NCBI RefSeq assembly: GCF_000014445.1
Contig: NC_008531.1
Location: 1,613,501-1,677,500 of the forward strand
DNA: 64,000 nucleotides
Reading direction: 5' to 3'
Origin: Leuconostoc mesenteroides subsp. mesenteroides ATCC 8293
GTDB taxonomy: Bacteria; Bacillota; Bacilli; Lactobacillales; Lactobacillaceae
The translations under genes and the position numbers were made by a program. This document shows positions 6,644-52,610 of this stretch, piece by piece (within the stretch, counting starts at the first letter, position 1; the number at the start of each line of letters is the position of its first letter). The notes under the pieces are model-generated. The model saw nothing but the letters and a program-made list of their open reading frames with translations. It was not told where the DNA came from and made no database searches.

Positions 6644-8325
6644 TGACATATTCTGTAGATATCAAACCTAACGAAGTCGCAGTTTATGCGCTAGGCGGTT
6701 TAGGCGAGATTGGTAAGAACACGTACGGTATCGAGTACCAAAATGAAATTATCGTCGTCGACGCGGGCATTAAGTTCCCAGAAGACGAATTGCTCGGTAT
6801 TGATTACGTTATTCCTGACTATACTTATTTAGTTGATAATATCGATCGCGTTAAAGCACTGGTTATCACCCACGGACACGAAGACCATATCGGTGCAATC
6901 GCCTACTTTTTGCAAGCTGTTAATGTTCCAGTTTACGCTGGCCCATTAGCAATGGCATTAATTAAGAACAAACTCGAAGAAAAACAGATGCTTAATCGCG
7001 TCGAACTTCATGAAATTACTGATGGCTCAGTACTGGAATTTGATCAGTTAAGTGTCGAGTTTTTCCGTACCACTCACTCTATACCTGACGTATTTGGTGT
7101 AGCTGTACACACACCAGTTGGGACTATTGTAGAAACTGGTGATTTTAAGTTTGATCTGACACCAACTACTAAGCAGCCACCTAACCTTTGGTCAATGGCA
7201 CGTATTGGCGAAAATGGTGTATTACTCATGATGAGTGATTCAACCAATGCTGAACGCCCTGAATGGACGAAGTCAGAAGCATGGGTAGCAAAATCTGTTA
7301 ACCATATATTTGATAAAATTCAACATGGACGTATTATATTTGCAACGTTTGCTTCTAATATGAACCGTGTTCGCATGGCTACAGATGCAGCTATTGCACA
7401 TGGGCGTAAAATTGCGGTATTTGGCCGTTCAATGGAATCAGCTGTTACTAATGGTCGTGCCTTGGGATATCTAAATATCCCTGATGATATGCTGGTCGAA
7501 CAATCAGAAATCAAACATATTCCTGACGATGAATTACTTATTCTATCAACTGGTTCTCAAGGTGAACCGATGGCTGCCCTGGCACGAATTGCTGAAGGAA
7601 CACATAAGCAAATTCGTTTGAAGCCAAAAGACAATGTTATTTTCTCCTCTTCACCAATTCCAGGTAATACAGCATCTGTAAACGCTGTTATTAATAAATT
7701 ACAAGAAGGTGGCGCTAATGTCATCTACGGTAAAGTTAATAACATCCACACTTCTGGTCACGGTGGTCAAGAAGAAGAAAAGTTAATGATTGCTTTGTTG
7801 AAGCCTAAATTTTTCATGCCTGTTCACGGTGAATATCGTATGTTAAAAGTCCACGCTTCATTAGCACATGAGCTAGAAGTACCAGAAGACCATACTTTCA
7901 TTTTAGAAAATGGTGATGTCTTGGCTCTGGATGGTGAAAATGCACGCGTTGCTGGACATTTCCCTGGCGATGACACATACATTGACGGATCAGGAATCGG
8001 TGATATCGGTTCAGTTGTGTTACATGATCGTCAAAAGCTGTCACAAGATGGCTTAGTTGTTGTTACTGCAACAATCGATTTGAAAAAGAAAGAGATTTTA
8101 TCTGGACCAGATATTTTATCACGTGGTTTTGTCTATATGCGTGAATCTGGCGATTTGATTAATGAAGGTCGACGTGTCATTTTCAGCACAATGCGCCGCG
8201 TTATGAATAGTTCAAACAATAGCGAGTCAGATATTCGTCAAGCTGTTATTGATGACTTGTCTCGTTTCCTATTCAAAGAAACAGCTCGCAAACCAATGAT
8301 TATGCCAATGCTAATTTTGGTTTAA
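6643..8325 (+). CDS. rnjA: Ribonuclease J
   Basis: A 560-aa RNase J, a 5'-3' exo- and endoribonuclease of mRNA decay and rRNA maturation. The metallo-beta-lactamase metal motif THGHEDHIG is at about residues 74-82, ETGDFKFD lies near residue 165, and the beta-CASP domain carries FATFASNMNRV and GSQGEP; the HTSGHGGQEE motif follows. Length and the C-terminal RKPMIMPMLILV are normal, so the protein is intact although its last 18 codons are duplicated as the phage attachment core. After integration its original terminator lies 44 kb away and a phage hairpin takes its place. Confidence 0.97.
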   Translation: MTYSVDIKPNEVAVYALGGLGEIGKNTYGIEYQNEIIVVDAGIKFPEDELLGIDYVIPDYTYLVDNIDRVKALVITHGHEDHIGAIAYFLQAVNVPVYAGPLAMALIKNKLEEKQMLNRVELHEITDGSVLEFDQLSVEFFRTTHSIPDVFGVAVHTPVGTIVETGDFKFDLTPTTKQPPNLWSMARIGENGVLLMMSDSTNAERPEWTKSEAWVAKSVNHIFDKIQHGRIIFATFASNMNRVRMATDAAIAHGRKIAVFGRSMESAVTNGRALGYLNIPDDMLVEQSEIKHIPDDELLILSTGSQGEPMAALARIAEGTHKQIRLKPKDNVIFSSSPIPGNTASVNAVINKLQEGGANVIYGKVNNIHTSGHGGQEEEKLMIALLKPKFFMPVHGEYRMLKVHASLAHELEVPEDHTFILENGDVLALDGENARVAGHFPGDDTYIDGSGIGDIGSVVLHDRQKLSQDGLVVVTATIDLKKKEILSGPDILSRGFVYMRESGDLINEGRRVIFSTMRRVMNSSNNSESDIRQAVIDDLSRFLFKETARKPMIMPMLILV

Positions 8326-8331
8326 ATAAAA
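8270..8331. repeat. attL core (62-bp direct repeat)
   Basis: Identical over 62 bp to 52549-52610; identity stops sharply at 8269 (c versus t) and at 8332 (c versus a). The repeat covers the last codons and stop of rnjA, so the gene is kept whole. Confidence 0.95.
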
Positions 8332-8630: not shown

Positions 8631-8723
8631 AAAAAGCCTAACAGATGAATAAGCGAACAAAAATAACTCAGGTAATTATACTTATAGAGCGAAGAAAGTC
8701 TGTTAGGCTTAAAAATAATTATA
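8631..8723 (-). ncRNA. Candidate phage small RNA, about 80 nt
   Basis: On the minus strand a TATAAT box (8718-8723) is followed 7 nt later by a 12-bp perfect stem (8699-8710 with 8634-8645) enclosing a 53-nt loop, then a U-run (8635-8631). The predicted start and end coincide with the two stem ends. No ORF fits. No good -35 is visible. Function unknown. Confidence 0.5.
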
Positions 8724-8770
8724 CACTACTAATTTTAAAAAGTGTTTTTAAATATTTTGTAATAAAAAGA

Positions 8771-8806
8771 CCCGATAGGGGTAAAGCTTCTCGGAATGCT
8801 ATCGGG
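8771..8806 (-). terminator. Terminator of the SOS-box cargo gene
   Basis: CCCGATAG/CTATCGGG stem with a 20-nt loop, followed on the minus strand by TCTTTTT. It lies 80 bp after the stop of the 85-aa gene. Confidence 0.75.
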
Positions 8807-8886
8807 CCGCGTAATTACTTTTAATATAATTACATGATTATTTTAACCAATAAATTCTCCGAAAACAATAACTAATATTAAATCCA

Positions 8887-9144
8887 TCAAAAATCGCCAA
8901 GTTCTACATTTACGTTTGTTTCTTTCTTGATATGTTTCGCTAATTCAGGCATACGATCCTTTTCAGATTCATTATATCTACCTATTTGTTCAGAATGTGT
9001 GGCCATACCTATTTTGGCGTACTCAAAGAACACGTTTAACTGCTTGGAATATTTTTGATACACGATGCGCACCCAATACAGGGTGTTCTTCTGTTTAGTG
9101 AATCGCTTCTTGATTTCTTCGATTAGTTTGTCGTCGTAGTTCAT
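8887..9144 (-). CDS. Small cytoplasmic protein under a LexA-box promoter
   Basis: An 85-aa soluble, charged protein I do not recognise. It is rich in Lys/Glu and aromatic residues (KNTLYWVRIVYQKYSKQ, about 20-36) with no signal peptide or membrane segment. It has its own promoter with a consensus DinR/LexA box between -35 and -10 and its own terminator, so it is a monocistronic cargo gene at the phage end rather than part of the late operon. The divergent neighbours are two membrane-protein genes. SOS inducibility is inferred from the box; the activity is unknown. Confidence 0.7.
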   Translation of the reverse strand: MNYDDKLIEEIKKRFTKQKNTLYWVRIVYQKYSKQLNVFFEYAKIGMATHSEQIGRYNESEKDRMPELAKHIKKETNVNVELGDF

Positions 9145-9190
9145 AATGTCACCTCTATGACATTATACGAACACTTGTTCCTTATTGCAA
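9143..9190 (-). promoter_or_regulatory. SOS-type promoter with LexA/DinR box and overlapping 9-bp inverted repeat
   Basis: Minus strand: TTGCAA (-35, 9185-9190), 17-bp spacer, TATAAT (-10, 9162-9167). The spacer carries GAACAAGTGTTC (9169-9180), a full match to the Gram-positive LexA box GAACNNNNGTTC. A second perfect inverted repeat, ATAATGTCA/TGACATTAT (9143-9166, 6-nt centre), overlaps the -10 and runs to the start codon, enclosing the AGAGGTGA ribosome site. The transcript would begin inside this repeat, so it is more likely a DNA operator than an mRNA hairpin. Confidence 0.8.
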
Positions 9191-9257: not shown

Positions 9258-9734
9258 ATGGATGGAACTATATCGGAGACAGAAGTTCACAAAGGTTGGA
9301 ATATTTATACAGACGTATCTTATGCCTGTGATATCCTTTTTTATGCAATCGCAGGCATAACATCGATTGTAACCTTCATATTTGGTAATAAAACATTTGT
9401 AATGTTTTGCCTGATGACCATATTACCGACCACTATAATGCACATTTTTTTGTTTGGTTTCTTTCGTTATTATTACAGCAAACACAGGTTTTTTAAAATC
9501 TATGTCACGGTATTTACTATTGGATTTGTATTTTTAATGGCCGTATTAACAACAAACGCAATTAATCAAAACGTTGTATTTGATTACCTAGTTCATAATT
9601 TAGGCCAAAAAATGGTTAATAAAATATTTGAATTTATCATGCTAATTTCAATCATAGAAATCATTACCTTTAAGATGACTGTAAAATCGCTTTCAAAAGA
9701 AATAACATCTTACGTAACTGACAAAAGGGGATAA
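9258..9734 (+). CDS. Four-TM membrane protein, cargo gene
   Basis: A 158-aa protein with about four predicted membrane segments (roughly residues 22-42, 48-70, 80-100 and 122-140) and short polar ends. No family recognised. It forms a two-gene unit with the next ORF (6-bp gap). A TATAAT box at 9216-9221 lies 42 bp upstream, with a poor -35; GGAG precedes the ATG by about 10 bp. Its orientation opposite to the late operon and its place between lysis genes and attL mark it as a lysogenic-conversion or exclusion candidate. Confidence 0.7.
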   Translation: MDGTISETEVHKGWNIYTDVSYACDILFYAIAGITSIVTFIFGNKTFVMFCLMTILPTTIMHIFLFGFFRYYYSKHRFFKIYVTVFTIGFVFLMAVLTTNAINQNVVFDYLVHNLGQKMVNKIFEFIMLISIIEIITFKMTVKSLSKEITSYVTDKRG

Positions 9735-9740
9735 TAAACC

Positions 9741-10337
9741 ATGAACATGATTTTATACTATGTTATCTGTTTACCTCTTGTTTTAATTATTTCTTACATT
9801 CTATCTATATTTATGGTTACCAAAAGCTTTTTCTTTTTTATGATGACATTTGTATTAGCAATAACATCTAGAATAATAAGAAAAAAACGTATTACACTAA
9901 TACAAGACGATATGAATCGTGATGTAAATAAAATATTATCATCATTACATGATTGGACAGATGATCAAGTGATAGAATTACTTAACCAACCATCCTCTAA
10001 TCCCGAATGTGCTATAAATGCTTGGAGACAAGCAACTGATACTTCAATTAATCGTTATGAATGTTCTGAAGAAGAGGCTAAAGACATAATTAAGCTCCAA
10101 GGAACTTACAGTTTAATTAAGGCTATCAGAACCTACTCCGTCTTATTATCAACAAATTCAGAAATGCAAAACTATATTCATAGCAGCTGGGGTGAACTTA
10201 AAAAAACTTTTAGAGAAAACAAAACTAGCAAAAATGATAACAATGACATTAAAAATTTGTTCGTAAACTTTACCAAAGTTATTATAGATAGTGATATTGC
10301 AAGCAGTAAAGATTCTGCGACTAGCAAGATAAAATAA
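9741..10337 (+). CDS. Membrane-anchored protein, cargo gene
   Basis: A 198-aa protein with two N-terminal membrane segments (about residues 4-25 and 28-46), a basic RIIRKKR stop-transfer, and a 150-residue helical cytoplasmic domain with a DWTDDQVIELL segment. No known motif is seen. Second gene of the divergent cargo pair; a shared terminator separates it from the convergent holin. The pair may act together at the membrane, for example in superinfection exclusion, but that is only inferred from location. Confidence 0.7.
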   Translation: MNMILYYVICLPLVLIISYILSIFMVTKSFFFFMMTFVLAITSRIIRKKRITLIQDDMNRDVNKILSSLHDWTDDQVIELLNQPSSNPECAINAWRQATDTSINRYECSEEEAKDIIKLQGTYSLIKAIRTYSVLLSTNSEMQNYIHSSWGELKKTFRENKTSKNDNNDIKNLFVNFTKVIIDSDIASSKDSATSKIK

Positions 10338-10377: not shown

Positions 10378-10682
10378 TTATTCAGTTTTCTTATCTTCCG
10401 TTTTACCAAACCCGTTGGCGAAACCATCAATAATAGAGGTAATCGACTTCGTAGCCGTTTCATTCAACCCGGTTGAAGCAAAACCAGCCCATACACCTAG
10501 CACGATGTCTTGCACTAACTTTGTGTCTTTGGTGTAAAGTGATAAGCCTACTGCTACCAAGGCACCTACAATTACAGCTATTAAGGGAACAGATGATTAT
10601 TAATTTTGGTAGGTTTTAGCACCTGCACAATTAACCACACGATTACTAAAATCGCGATATTTGAATCTACATTAAATGTCAT
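10378..10682 (-). pseudogene. Holin, Hol44/A118-like, split by a frameshift
   Basis: Reading from an ATG at 10682 with a good AAGGAG site gives MTFNVDSNIAILVIVW and ends at TAA 10581-10583 after 33 residues. One base back, the frame continues LIAVIVGALVAVGLS to the stop at 10378, giving a full-length holin of about 101 aa with two hydrophobic segments and a charged tail. The shift lies in a CCC run (codons TTC CCT TAA). Either one C was lost (mutation or sequencing error) or the tRNA slips by -1 on CCCT next to the stop. It sits between endolysin and the cargo terminator, as expected for a holin. Confidence 0.65.
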
Positions 10683-10691
10683 TATTTCTCC

Positions 10692-11783
10692 TTATTTGAT
10701 TGTGGCAAACGCCTTCATCATGCTGACTGGTTCGCCGCCAATTTCAACATTGATAGTTGTTGCTGTTTGACTAATCACTTTGTACTTACCGTTCAAAGTG
10801 AAGTACTCCATACGTCCGTTGTTGCCTTGAATATATTGATTACTCAACTTATTACCATATTTATCAGTCAATGTCATAGCTGAAATAGGAATATAGTTGT
10901 TGTAATCAATAGGCTTGATACTCATATCAATGTTGACACCGTACATTTTGTTATTGTACTTAGTCCAGTAATCAGCAACATATACACCACTGAAGGTTGC
11001 GTATTGTGTCTTAGCTGGTGTACTTGGCGTGTTAGTTGATTGACTTGGCTTAGAAGCAACTTGCTCAGCTGGCTTGTTGTTATCCAATGAACCAACCACC
11101 ATGACGTTGCCGTCAACTCCGTAGTGATTATCAGCGTATTGCCAAATCTTCACGTTGGAATAGTTAGGGAAATATTGCATAGGTGGTGTTGCTTGATGTG
11201 CTGTAGTTAAGTACCAAGCTAACCACAAAGCGTTAGGATAACGAGCGTTAATACGACTTAAATCAACGTATGAGTTCACATAGCTAGTGTAGCTATAAAA
11301 CATAGGCTTATACCCAGAGGCGTAAATCTGATCCATGAACGCTAGAATAGCCGTTGTATTATTGGCCTTGTTTGCACCAGCGCCTGCTTCATAATCCATT
11401 GCGATGTATGAACCTTTGGCTAGCCCTGCATTTTGTGCATCTTGAACGGCTAACTGAGCTGAATAAGTAGCTTCACTCACCGAGTCACCTACTTGTGCCC
11501 AGAAGTAACCGCCTGTTTGCATACCAACTGCATCAGCGTTGTGAATCTGTGCGTAGGCTTTCGGGTTACTATAATGAGCACCCTCACCGCCACCTCGTCC
11601 ACCTAGCTTAACCATAGTAAAGTTATCGCCAACTTGCTTAAACGAATTGAAATAATTTGCTGTATCACCTTGATAACTGGCAACATCAATGCCATTAGTA
11701 TTAGCTGACACGCCTGTGATCATTGCACCAAAAAAGGCAACCGCTCCGATTGAAGCGACTACCCATCGTTTTAATTTATTCAA
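10692..11783 (-). CDS. Endolysin, GH25 muramidase with signal peptide
   Basis: A 363-aa lysin. Residues 1-28 form a Sec signal peptide (KLKRW, then a hydrophobic core, cleavage near VSA-NT). A GH25 lysozyme domain follows (about 30-210) with the catalytic carboxylates in GIDVASYQGD and AMDYEAG. A Ser/Thr/Pro-rich linker (about 235-260) leads to a C-terminal domain of about 105 residues, probably for wall binding. Start codon is TTG with GGGAGG upstream. Secreted endolysins of this type are known from Oenococcus phage fOg44, where the holin sets timing rather than export. Confidence 0.92.
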   Translation of the reverse strand: MNKLKRWVVASIGAVAFFGAMITGVSANTNGIDVASYQGDTANYFNSFKQVGDNFTMVKLGGRGGGEGAHYSNPKAYAQIHNADAVGMQTGGYFWAQVGDSVSEATYSAQLAVQDAQNAGLAKGSYIAMDYEAGAGANKANNTTAILAFMDQIYASGYKPMFYSYTSYVNSYVDLSRINARYPNALWLAWYLTTAHQATPPMQYFPNYSNVKIWQYADNHYGVDGNVMVVGSLDNNKPAEQVASKPSQSTNTPSTPAKTQYATFSGVYVADYWTKYNNKMYGVNIDMSIKPIDYNNYIPISAMTLTDKYGNKLSNQYIQGNNGRMEYFTLNGKYKVISQTATTINVEIGGEPVSMMKAFATIK

Positions 11784-12846: not shown

Positions 12847-13938
12847 CTAATTTGTGGTGCTAAACAAGTCATTTCGTCCAAAGCGTAGATTACCAAAGGT
12901 AAGATTAACTACTTCTGAACTACTGTCGATACTGTAAGCTGTAAGAACTGACTTATATTGTGTGTTATCGTAATAAATATTTGATTTTAGCCCTAGCTTT
13001 ACTTTTTCTAAGGGTAGGAAGTTGTTTCCTAGTTGTGCACTAAATTGAATACTATGAGAGTAAGTGTTTGCTGATAAATTACTTTGTGCTATTGAGTCGT
13101 AAGTAGGGTTATCAGTCGCTGTTTTATCAAATAAATATATCTGTACCTGTGTTGGTTTAGCAACGCTATCTGTAAGGCTCTTACTTATAGAACCATCTTT
13201 AGTGAGCCAATAGCGTGATAATACTGTAGGGCTTTCCATGTCTGTCGACGCCTGGTCTACGATCCAAAGCTCGTTATTGTAATTTCGTAGGTTTCTTGAA
13301 TCACTAACTACCCAATTATTGAAATCATAGACATCATTTTTAAAATTCCAGGTGTCTGTTGCCTGATGAAAGTCAATTTTTGGATAATAAAAAGGCACCT
13401 CGTTTGAGATGTCTTGCCCTATTCCTGTTATTTCAAACACTGTATTATGTAGTTTGAATCCACGTATTAAGTAGTCTATAAAATTGCTTGTACTAATTCC
13501 ATCTGATGAGGTTACTTGAAAGGCTGTGTTAGTCGAGTTGGTAAGCCCCTTATTGAGTAAGTTAGTGCCTATATTAGAGTTAATATAGTTGTTTATTAGC
13601 TTTAATATATGAGATTCATAGCTATTACCACTCTTGCTACCCACAATAATGTCACCGTTAAGTAGATTCCAAATATAATTAGCACTTAGGGTCATAAGAT
13701 TACTAGAATCATCTACATCTACTGTGATTATCTGCCCGTAGTACATTAATGTTGCGCTATTATTTGGTCTAACAGCCACATAATCACCTTTCATAATGTT
13801 AGTGTTCTTATCAATCGTGAATGAACTGGTAGCATTACTTAAGGCATCCATCTGAATATCATAGCTGAATAACTTATAGGTACCTTTTATAACTAATTTA
13901 GCACTATCAAACACTGTAATATCAAGCGCCAAACTCAT
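12847..13938 (-). CDS. Tail/baseplate protein
   Basis: A 363-aa beta-rich protein without a known catalytic motif. The N-terminal SAKLVIKGTYKLFSYDIQM and the GDYVAVRP-YYGQI strand pair resemble hub/baseplate proteins of Gram-positive siphophages (ReqiPepy6 gp37-like). It overlaps the previous gene by 4 bp (ATGA). Confidence 0.55.
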   Translation of the reverse strand: MSLALDITVFDSAKLVIKGTYKLFSYDIQMDALSNATSSFTIDKNTNIMKGDYVAVRPNNSATLMYYGQIITVDVDDSSNLMTLSANYIWNLLNGDIIVGSKSGNSYESHILKLINNYINSNIGTNLLNKGLTNSTNTAFQVTSSDGISTSNFIDYLIRGFKLHNTVFEITGIGQDISNEVPFYYPKIDFHQATDTWNFKNDVYDFNNWVVSDSRNLRNYNNELWIVDQASTDMESPTVLSRYWLTKDGSISKSLTDSVAKPTQVQIYLFDKTATDNPTYDSIAQSNLSANTYSHSIQFSAQLGNNFLPLEKVKLGLKSNIYYDNTQYKSVLTAYSIDSSSEVVNLTFGNLRFGRNDLFSTTN

Positions 13939-47274: not shown

Positions 47275-47994
47275 TTATGCAGCTTGCAAAAACTTATTAA
47301 TAAAGTATTGCTGTCCCTTACCAGTTACCTTTGGTGTCTTAGTTGTTACGTTTACCCCATTTGCATTGATATGGTTATGTTCCTTGATTTCGAACAATCC
47401 TATTTCCATGCTCTTTTGAGTTGGCATGTTGTAGTCTGTTCCCTTACGGCGAATTAGATAGCCATTCTCACGCAACCAGGTAAACAATCGATTAGCTCCT
47501 GTATCAATTCCATTCTGTTTCAACAGCTTGGCTAGTTCGCCAACCAAGATACTTGTTTGACTTGCGCTCACTGCATCAGCGAACAATGCTTTGGGTTTCA
47601 TTTCAGCAATGATTTTGTCTTTGTGTTCAAGTAGTTGCTGTGAAGCTTTCAAACCCAATGCCATTTGATAAGATGGATCACTTGCTAATTCCTTGTAACG
47701 CTCCTCGACTTGGATAAAGTAATTACGCACTTGTTTACCATTTTCGTTACGTTGTAACATTGCAATTTCTTTTGCTGTGCTAATTGTTAGATTGTATTCA
47801 ATGCTTGGGCGACCGCCTTTTGGGGTTTTGGACAAAAAAGACCAAAAGTCCGTACCATCTACAAATCCATATTCAATCATTCGTTCAATCCATTTGTTGA
47901 ATTGAGTTTTTACTTCCAACGCCTTGTGCAAGTCTCGCGCATTAACAAACTGTTCTCCCGATTGAGTTGTATCAATCTTGATAATTTCTTCCAT
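47275..47994 (-). CDS. Phage antirepressor (AntA/KilA-C type)
   Basis: A 239-aa antirepressor. N-terminal AntA-like domain: VNARDLHKALEVKTQFNKWI, FVDGTDFWSFL, EYNLTISTAKEIAMLQRNE. C-terminal KilAC domain: VGELAKLLKQNGIDTGANRL and LFTWLRENGYLIRR. Such proteins inactivate CI or regulate lysogeny exit. ATG 47994 with GGAAGG. Confidence 0.9.
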   Translation of the reverse strand: MEEIIKIDTTQSGEQFVNARDLHKALEVKTQFNKWIERMIEYGFVDGTDFWSFLSKTPKGGRPSIEYNLTISTAKEIAMLQRNENGKQVRNYFIQVEERYKELASDPSYQMALGLKASQQLLEHKDKIIAEMKPKALFADAVSASQTSILVGELAKLLKQNGIDTGANRLFTWLRENGYLIRRKGTDYNMPTQKSMEIGLFEIKEHNHINANGVNVTTKTPKVTGKGQQYFINKFLQAA

Positions 47995-47999
47995 GTTGT

Positions 48000-48242
48000 T
48001 TACCTTCCGTAAAATTTTGTGTGTGAATCTATCCATTCCTGAACTGCCTTTTTTGGATAACCATCTTTCATATTTGGTTGTTCGATATAAGGAAATCCAT
48101 CTGAATAGATATATTTATTAACGTTGTTGATGCCAACTCCTAGAAACTGAGCCAACTCTGTTTTATCCATGATTTCTGGTAATTGACTCTTGTGGAAAAA
48201 CTTTATGATTTCATCTAGTTTTGCAAGTAGCTGCGTTACCAT
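48000..48242 (-). CDS. Excisionase-like HTH protein
   Basis: An 80-aa MerR-like/HTH_17 protein: MDKTELAQFLGVGINNVNKY, then FPYIEQPN and the wing-like PKKAVQEWIDSH. Could be Xis or an early regulator. AAAGGAAG site; 5 bp before the antirepressor start. Confidence 0.75.
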   Translation of the reverse strand: MVTQLLAKLDEIIKFFHKSQLPEIMDKTELAQFLGVGINNVNKYIYSDGFPYIEQPNMKDGYPKKAVQEWIDSHTKFYGR

Positions 48243-51432: not shown

Positions 51433-52479
51433 ATGGCTTCAATATATAAAAGAGGTAAAACATTTACCGTTAGTGTATCCGTCCCTTATCAAGGCGGATA
51501 TAAAAAGAAAACTAAATCAGGTTTCAAAACAAAAACTGAAGCAAATCAATGGGCTATTAAAACAGAAGGTTCTAAAATAGATGTCGATATTGATTTTAAA
51601 CCGTCACAACTCCTTTCTTCCTATATAAGTGACTGGATTGATACATATAAAACAGACGTGTCACGTTCAACTCATGTTGGTTATGAAATGACTTTGAAAG
51701 CTGTTAGCGAATACTTTGAAAATACATCATTAGATCAAGTAACCCGTCACGATGCGCAAAAATTTTTAAACGAGTACGGCCTCTCCCACTCTCTTGCCAC
51801 TAGTCAAAAAGTCAAAGGACATTTAAGCGGAATATTGAAAGACGCTGTAGCTGATGGAATAATAAAAGTTAACCCTTTTGAAAGAGCAAAACCACATGGT
51901 ACTAACGCCAAGGATAACTCACTGAAATTCTTAGAGTATGCTGACTTCAAGCGCTTTATAGAATATCTAAAAGAAAACCATGAACCTACCCATGACATTA
52001 TGTTGGTAGCTTCTTTATCAGGTGCTCGTTTAGGAGAAGTATTAGCCCTTACTCCTAATGACATCGGTAATAGAACAATCAATATCAGCAAATCTTATGA
52101 AGAACGTTTGAATATTGTAAAAGAGCCTAAAACTCCTAGTTCAATCAGGACTGTAGACGTTCCGGGATGGTTAACGGATTACTTACTTACATTATCCAAA
52201 GACAACAATGAAAGATTATTTGATCGTCAGCAATCCAGTGTTAATCGTGAATTACAAAGAATATTAACACGATTAGACATCCCCAAAAGGATTACTTTCC
52301 ACGGACTAAGACATAGTCATGCTTCTATGTTAATTTCTCAAGGTGTTGCTGTAGAATATATTAGTGAAAGACTGGGTCACAAAGATATTTCTATCACTCA
52401 AAAGACGTATTTACACCTCTTACAAGTGAAGCGAAATAAGGAAATTTCACACACTATCACGCTTCTTAATTCACTATAA
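51433..52479 (+). CDS. int: Tyrosine integrase
   Basis: A 348-aa phage integrase. N-terminal AP2-like arm-binding domain (about 1-60), SAM-like core-binding domain, and catalytic domain with Arg in SLSGARLGEVL, HGLRHSHASML, LGHKDIS and the nucleophile Tyr in TQKTYLHLL. AAGGGAGA site. Its 3' end is 69 bp from attR. Confidence 0.96.
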   Translation: MASIYKRGKTFTVSVSVPYQGGYKKKTKSGFKTKTEANQWAIKTEGSKIDVDIDFKPSQLLSSYISDWIDTYKTDVSRSTHVGYEMTLKAVSEYFENTSLDQVTRHDAQKFLNEYGLSHSLATSQKVKGHLSGILKDAVADGIIKVNPFERAKPHGTNAKDNSLKFLEYADFKRFIEYLKENHEPTHDIMLVASLSGARLGEVLALTPNDIGNRTINISKSYEERLNIVKEPKTPSSIRTVDVPGWLTDYLLTLSKDNNERLFDRQQSSVNRELQRILTRLDIPKRITFHGLRHSHASMLISQGVAVEYISERLGHKDISITQKTYLHLLQVKRNKEISHTITLLNSL

Positions 52480-52548: not shown

Positions 52549-52610
52549 TATTCAAAGAAACAGCTCGCAAACCAATGATTATGCCAATGCTAATTTTGGT
52601 TTAAATAAAA
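52549..52610. repeat. attR core (62-bp direct repeat)
   Basis: Exact copy of 8270-8331, carrying the last 18 codons and stop of rnjA as a non-functional remnant. Confidence 0.95.

Follow-up and report, generated by a model that had tools for sequence, protein, structure and literature searches.

An orphan relative of the third gene of umuC-yolD SOS operons behind a LexA-type promoter in a Lactobacillaceae prophage

Phage P1 encodes HumD, reportedly described by McLenigan et al. in 1999, an orphan UmuD'-like protein under LexA control in a phage without a polymerase of its own, and a second point of reference is UvrX of SPbeta. Phage morons are genes with their own promoter, variable in presence among sibling phages and placed between conserved phage modules. 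According to sections of two accounts, the Gram-positive mutasome (UvrX/YqjW-YolD/YqjX-RecA) is composed of a polymerase, a YolD-type subunit and RecA (PMC6511836, PMC12926913), and passages of a third report LexA binding at the yolC and yolD promoters of Bacillus phage SPbeta (PMC8270828). Third genes beside UmuC/UvrX and YolD appear in parts of two further sources, as solo ImuB-C (PMC3765255) and as acnL in Lysinibacillus (PMC13239906), and an excerpt also reports the N-terminal arm of YolD fused to another domain (PMC12926913).

The stretch of DNA analysed here (64 kb, G000:C2:1613501-1677500, hereafter the window) is part of a Lactobacillaceae genome and carries a prophage spanning ∼44 kb, so called because of its exact 62-bp attachment repeats and its integrase (Table 1). 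An intact 85-aa gene, designated W, whose closest named relatives are from Leuconostoc, lies ∼560 bp inside one end of this prophage, where an initial sequence-only reading of the window had placed it; the description of the gene as lying beside the lysis genes holds for the side of the prophage, but not for direct contact, as two plus-strand ORFs intervene. Among sibling prophages, L005 and L112 have W immediately after the holin, and L002, L007, L174 and L180 have other ORFs between the two. Sibling holins of the same type are single ORFs of 97–101 aa; in the window the holin is split in two frames, and the lysis cassette may therefore be damaged though W is intact. A possible terminator follows W, an inverted repeat before a T run that was not listed by a terminator scan allowing loops of 3–8 only; by eye, the W promoter of the window has no terminator-like repeat ahead of it, unlike that of several siblings. 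Between the attachment site and W lies a perfect 12-bp inverted repeat (AAGCCTAACAGA/TCTGTTAGGCTT, 8634-8710) with arms 53 nt apart and no Rfam match at the gathering threshold.

Table 1. Features of the W locus and its prophage (positions in the window)
Feature	Position	Strand	Basis
Attachment repeat, 62 bp exact, at 3' end of gene read as RNase J	8270..8331	.	exact 62-bp match
Possible terminator 3' of W, inverted repeat then T run	8759..8818	-	inverted-repeat list and reading
85-aa gene W, orphan copy of third gene of umuC-yolD SOS operons	8887..9144	-	intact ORF, homology
Second palindrome, 9-bp arms without mismatch, 6-nt loop	9143..9166	.	inverted-repeat search
-10 hexamer TATAAT	9162..9167	-	promoter scan
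Putative LexA/DinR box (minus-strand reading GAACAAGTGTTC)	9169..9180	.	exact GAACNNNNGTTC
-35 hexamer TTGCAA	9185..9190	-	promoter scan
Two ORFs between holin region and W	9258-10337	+	without family match
Holin gene, C-terminal part, 60-aa ORF from TTG	10378..10560	-	phrog_19617, E 2.6e-8
Holin gene, second piece (33 aa)	10581-10682	-	frame differs from 60-aa piece
Endolysin	10692..11783	-	phrog_291, E 1.6e-63; Pfam Glyco_hydro_25
Ant-type antirepressor of prophage	47275-48036		phrog_63, E 2.8e-72
Prophage integrase	51433..52479	+	phrog_1, E 1.4e-72
Attachment repeat, other copy	52549..52610	.	exact 62-bp match

Read on the minus strand, the W promoter runs TTGCAA, 4 nt, GAACAAGTGTTC, G, TATAAT and then ATAATGTCA-TAGAGG-TGACATTAT, with 17 nt between hexamers that match at 10/12 positions. 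The full LexA/DinR box in a strong promoter noted at the outset is present as an exact GAACNNNNGTTC between a good -35 and -10; LexA bound at this box would cover the promoter. Promoter-like sites in the 1.1-kb region of W number 5 against 5.1 in shuffles, the single exact GAACNNNNGTTC of the 64-kb window compares with 0.66 expected (shuffle mean, not significant), and over the whole genome the exact box is no commoner than a reversed control (29 vs 33). The case for a LexA box is therefore made by position and conservation, the count alone being uninformative. All eight intact prophage W promoters keep GAAC/GTTC, with variation confined to the four middle bases (four forms); the decayed copies L041 and L131 each lack one half of the box; and the arrangement of box, -35 and -10 is common to host umuC promoters.

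The host genome encodes lexA (Pfam), with no exact box in the 3177 bases around it, and promoter-placed exact boxes precede its recA-, uvrB-, dinB-, ftsK- and gyrB/parE-like genes (named by eye) as well as both of its umuC operons. A third, partial umuC fragment also has an exact box in front (G000:C2:1008085-1008294; L249, L264), and most of the remaining genomic box sites have no apparent SOS role. Box conservation, the presence of lexA and the boxes at SOS genes make it well supported that W would be a LexA (DinR)-regulated SOS gene with its box placed to block the promoter, in agreement with the SOS-timed, LexA-controlled cargo gene of the sequence-only reading. A further exact box, again in this arrangement with the -10, precedes an unidentified gene just outside the window (L259, G000:C2:1684974-1684985). 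An orphan yolD-like gene lies behind an exact box on the 37-kb second contig (L056/L261, G000:C1, box 13116-13127), where no umuC match was found; 258 plasmid records of PLSDB contain yolD-like genes, among them Leuconostoc plasmid pKLE01, whose copy is also preceded by a box.

A second palindrome, reaching from the -10 to the start codon of W and overlapping both, was likewise as described, its loop TAGAGG holding part of the likely ribosome-binding site; an equally good inverted repeat arose in 67/5000 shuffles of the 100-nt region. The transcription start anticipated within this repeat falls near 9155, in the loop, by the rule of thumb of ∼7 nt past the -10, and leaves the very short leader foreseen (∼11 nt). 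The arms are perfect in 9/14 promoter modules of the slot occupied by W in sibling prophages, and one pair shorter in L004; L188 and G251 have one broken pair, L041 and L131 two. The palindrome itself is real, but as a candidate second operator it has no other copy in the 64-kb window, is not seen in 26 other promoters (23 umuC and 3 ICE-type) and tolerates arm-breaking changes. By eye, host umuC promoters of the same genome have a different short palindrome at the -10 (GTATAATGAATTATAC), and the ICE-type promoters only a shorter one. In read-through RNA, a predicted hairpin of -14.5 kcal/mol (71 nt, z -2.0) encloses the ribosome-binding site and the start codon; RNA beginning in the loop is predicted to be unfolded, the hairpin forming only if the left arm is transcribed. 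A role in shutting off read-through translation of W is possible on this modelling, but several siblings have a terminator-like repeat ahead of the W promoter (L005: -22.2 kcal/mol, z -6.4).

No Pfam, PHROG or NCBIfam family matches the W protein of the window above cut-off, in keeping with the small protein of unknown kind first noted, and its relatives are third genes of umuC-yolD operons. Relatives occur in 101/397 Lactobacillaceae genomes, and a family set of every row down to a cut at E 1e-5 (77 rows for 76 loci, one locus being represented twice) places 55 of 76 W loci beside umuC, a Y-family polymerase (Pfam IMS, E 8.3e-30 for the one copy tested), in the order umuC-yolD-W at 40 and umuC-W-yolD at 15; two more adjoin a yolD-like gene only. 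An exact box stands just ahead of umuC in 45 of these 55, compared with 1.6% of positions drawn at random from those loci. The 15 loci of the second order are distant matches (about 25–40% identity), whose genomic place speaks for their being true relatives. Eight weaker matches (L102-L109) were examined: six adjoin umuC, L104 is a prophage orphan, and at L105 W was not re-found. The middle gene is termed YolD-like from its DRGxxKWxGxxLSDHT stretch and its place; its Pfam YolD scores are weak (4/16 members, best E 0.0038).

Three genomes, all from one genus, have W joined to a YolD-like part in a single ORF (271 aa in L108 and L270, 263 aa in L271) that adjoins a umuC-like ORF, as seen by eye for L270 and L271 and by tblastn for L108. 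The YolD-like part of L108 was missed by tblastn with three yolD queries, and compares with a YolD-like profile at a probability of 97.2 and E 3.1e-11. The host genome itself has two umuC operons with W (L038, L039), to whose W copies the window protein is 50 and 52% identical (E 6.3e-22 and 5.9e-23), retaining the most conserved positions of the family (N20, T21, Y23, N37, F40, G46, S51, I54). The window has no umuC or yolD match at E 1e-3, and its W is therefore an orphan copy. W is predicted to fold as alpha-beta-beta-beta-alpha-beta; no solved structure clearly matches this model (Foldseek: PARP2, 46 columns, E 0.15), and single-chain modelling gave no lead to contact with UmuC, YolD or DNA.

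The other 19 of the 76 loci comprise prophage W loci (the window, L112, L131, L041); L042, in a less clear phage-like setting; L043, L115 and L122, in ICE-like elements by eye, each with its own exact box; L132, with its own exact box at the same spacing as those three; five Fructobacillus-type loci without umuC or a box ahead of W (L048, L074, L079, L082, L110); and fragments (L124, L127-L130). The ICE-like L043 and L115 carry FtsK-like, replication-initiator or transposase genes by eye. P0058, a relative of the Fructobacillus-type W branch, is named 'Phage protein' in UniRef.

Fifty sibling prophage loci were fetched with the endolysin as bait, 14 of them with less than 1000 nt after the lysin. 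W is present in seven, six times as an orphan with an exact box after the lysis genes and once inside a whole operon; umuC lies behind a box in three (L203, L207, L210), where the L207 operon is complete (umuC-yolD-W) and L203 and L210 reach the contig end within umuC; an orphan yolD-like gene lies behind a box in three (L188, L193, L205); and 38 have no W, yolD-like gene or umuC. The three orphan yolD-like genes share the promoter and leader of W, second palindrome included, and the umuC operons in the slot have a leader of their own. A yolD-like gene with the W-type promoter module also occurs in G251 and in Leuconostoc phage phiMH1, in the latter between holin and integrase; a single lineage seems to unite G251, L188 and phiMH1. 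In L. brevis phage JNU_P2, a W relative is found near the integrase, preceded by an exact box and a small ORF; L. curvatus phage TMW 1.1365 P3 has a yolD-like gene between lysin and integrase, behind a box with one mismatch only; and in the prophage L104, from another genus, W comes after the lysin, with a small ORF of unknown kind and an exact box ahead of it. Since W, yolD-like genes and umuC operons occupy the same interval across these prophages and phages, the stretch between lysis genes and attachment site is, judged by gene content, a recurrent slot for putative SOS-polymerase accessory genes. Small ORFs heading the SOS-box units of two phages (L267:2188-2496 and L268:2229-2477) are alike by eye and may encode another accessory protein of the SOS response; the equivalently placed ORF of L104 has no match to that of L268.

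W is, by its genomic traits, a moron-like gene, with its own promoter and optional presence among siblings (7/50), and it is probably a moron that, once induced by the SOS response, provides the host UmuC-YolD polymerase with one accessory part. As a one-gene unit with its own LexA-type promoter between lysis genes and attachment site, it would be expressed early once DNA damage leads to LexA cleavage; its product would then join or tune the host UmuC-YolD-RecA translesion polymerase, and damaged phage DNA, and host DNA with it, might be copied or mutated in favour of the element. The sequence basis for this proposal comprises the promoter and its box, homology, the operon association, the W-YolD fusion, purifying selection and the interchange of genes in the slot. 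Counted against it are a fold model that gives no lead; the lack of a W match in 296/397 Lactobacillaceae genomes; the 38/50 sibling slots noted above; the five Fructobacillus-type copies lacking both umuC and box; and the weak Pfam YolD scores behind the name of the middle gene. Judged by the genome count, UmuC may do without W in many species. A broader form of the proposal, in which W is an undescribed third UmuC-YolD subunit in lactic acid bacteria and temperate phages of several genera swap W, YolD or the operon in one SOS promoter slot by the attachment site and so reprogramme the damage-tolerant DNA synthesis of the host on prophage induction, is evenly balanced between being right and wrong.

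The prophage copies of W form one clade (98/98), nested in a set of 33 that otherwise consists mostly of Leuconostoc operon copies (99/96), in a tree built on few columns with L041 and L042 as long branches. Among the eight intact copies (window, L112, L002-L007), mean dN (0.028) is far below mean dS (0.45), and prophage W is, on this measure, under purifying selection. A different use of the same conserved protein is conceivable, if unlikely: prophage W could act as a brake or decoy that competes with host W or YolD, damping or redirecting UmuC-YolD mutagenesis and shielding the prophage from host-driven mutation, since one part without its polymerase would suit a competitor as well as a helper and the host itself makes two W proteins from its umuC operons; the retention of the most conserved family positions under purifying selection speaks against this, however, and the complete operon found in the slot points to supply rather than blockade. 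That W is a functionless hitchhiker, left over from a phage-borne umuC-yolD-W operon after loss of its first two genes, would accord with the whole operon of L207 and with the two decayed copies, of which L131 is frameshifted near the start and L041 truncated at the end, with gene, box and palindrome decayed together in both; it is nevertheless highly improbable, given eight intact copies in which mean dN is roughly a sixteenth of mean dS, a box intact in all eight and a tree that, in a poorly resolved region, lends no support to the prophage clade as sister of the L207 W. That W acts outside DNA synthesis, as the induction-timed antirepressor, exclusion or lysis modulator suggested in the sequence-only reading, would be allowed by the LexA box and by the location of W between attachment site and lysis genes; it can be largely set aside, as the homologues are third genes of umuC operons in many genera, genes are swapped in the slot, no such family matched W at E 1 or better and the same prophage has a separate Ant.

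The favoured reading, W as a supplied polymerase part, makes an anonymous 85-aa phage gene a testable clue to the assembly of Gram-positive Pol V-like polymerases, and also bears on why mobile elements carry single parts of SOS polymerases; it suggests that prophages of this kind take individual components from the emergency DNA-copying machinery of their hosts. The exchange of W, a yolD-like gene or the full operon in one slot offers a natural experiment for identifying the part that is limiting in translesion synthesis. Since Leuconostoc species serve in food fermentation, a phage gene that alters mutation after DNA damage could matter for the stability of strains and for prophage release.

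Like P1 with HumD, the temperate phage described here would carry a single accessory component of an SOS polymerase, and W has the genomic traits of that type, being phage-encoded, with a LexA-type promoter and relatives in host mutasome operons and no adjacent polymerase; by analogy, W may work as HumD does, as a lone mutasome part. HumD stands in for UmuD', whereas W is a different protein found beside YolD, itself a proposed UmuD counterpart. W was also considered as a YolD/UmuD homologue and rejected, lacking the DRGxxKW stretch by eye and matching no such Pfam family. With the UvrX/YqjW-YolD/YqjX-RecA mutasome and the YolD of SPbeta, the W system shares an SOS-controlled Y-family polymerase plus YolD, also phage-borne; unlike those systems, the phages here have W alone or a yolD-like gene alone, under one shared promoter module, and a W-type third gene is not named in the portions cited of two accounts of Gram-positive mutasomes (PMC6511836, PMC12926913). 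As far as the excerpted sources describe them, ImuB-C and acnL resemble W as further small genes tied to operons of UmuC-YolD type; W seems set apart from these and from the YolD-arm fusion by scanned W proteins that fall below every Pfam cut-off and by the lack of a YolD arm by eye. The WGR domain (Pfam PF05406) matches weakly over NTIYEV...NVFFEWGRIG in some W relatives (best 20.4 bits); scanned relatives fall below the 22-bit cut-off, the W of the window has no match, the fold model yields for a WGR fold only the 46-column PARP2 hit at E 0.15, and a few relatives are named 'WGR domain-containing' in UniRef. With phage morons, W has in common its own promoter, its variable presence among siblings and its place between conserved modules; what distinguishes it from the usual moron is that the promoter is LexA-type and common to interchangeable coding sequences, W or yolD-like.
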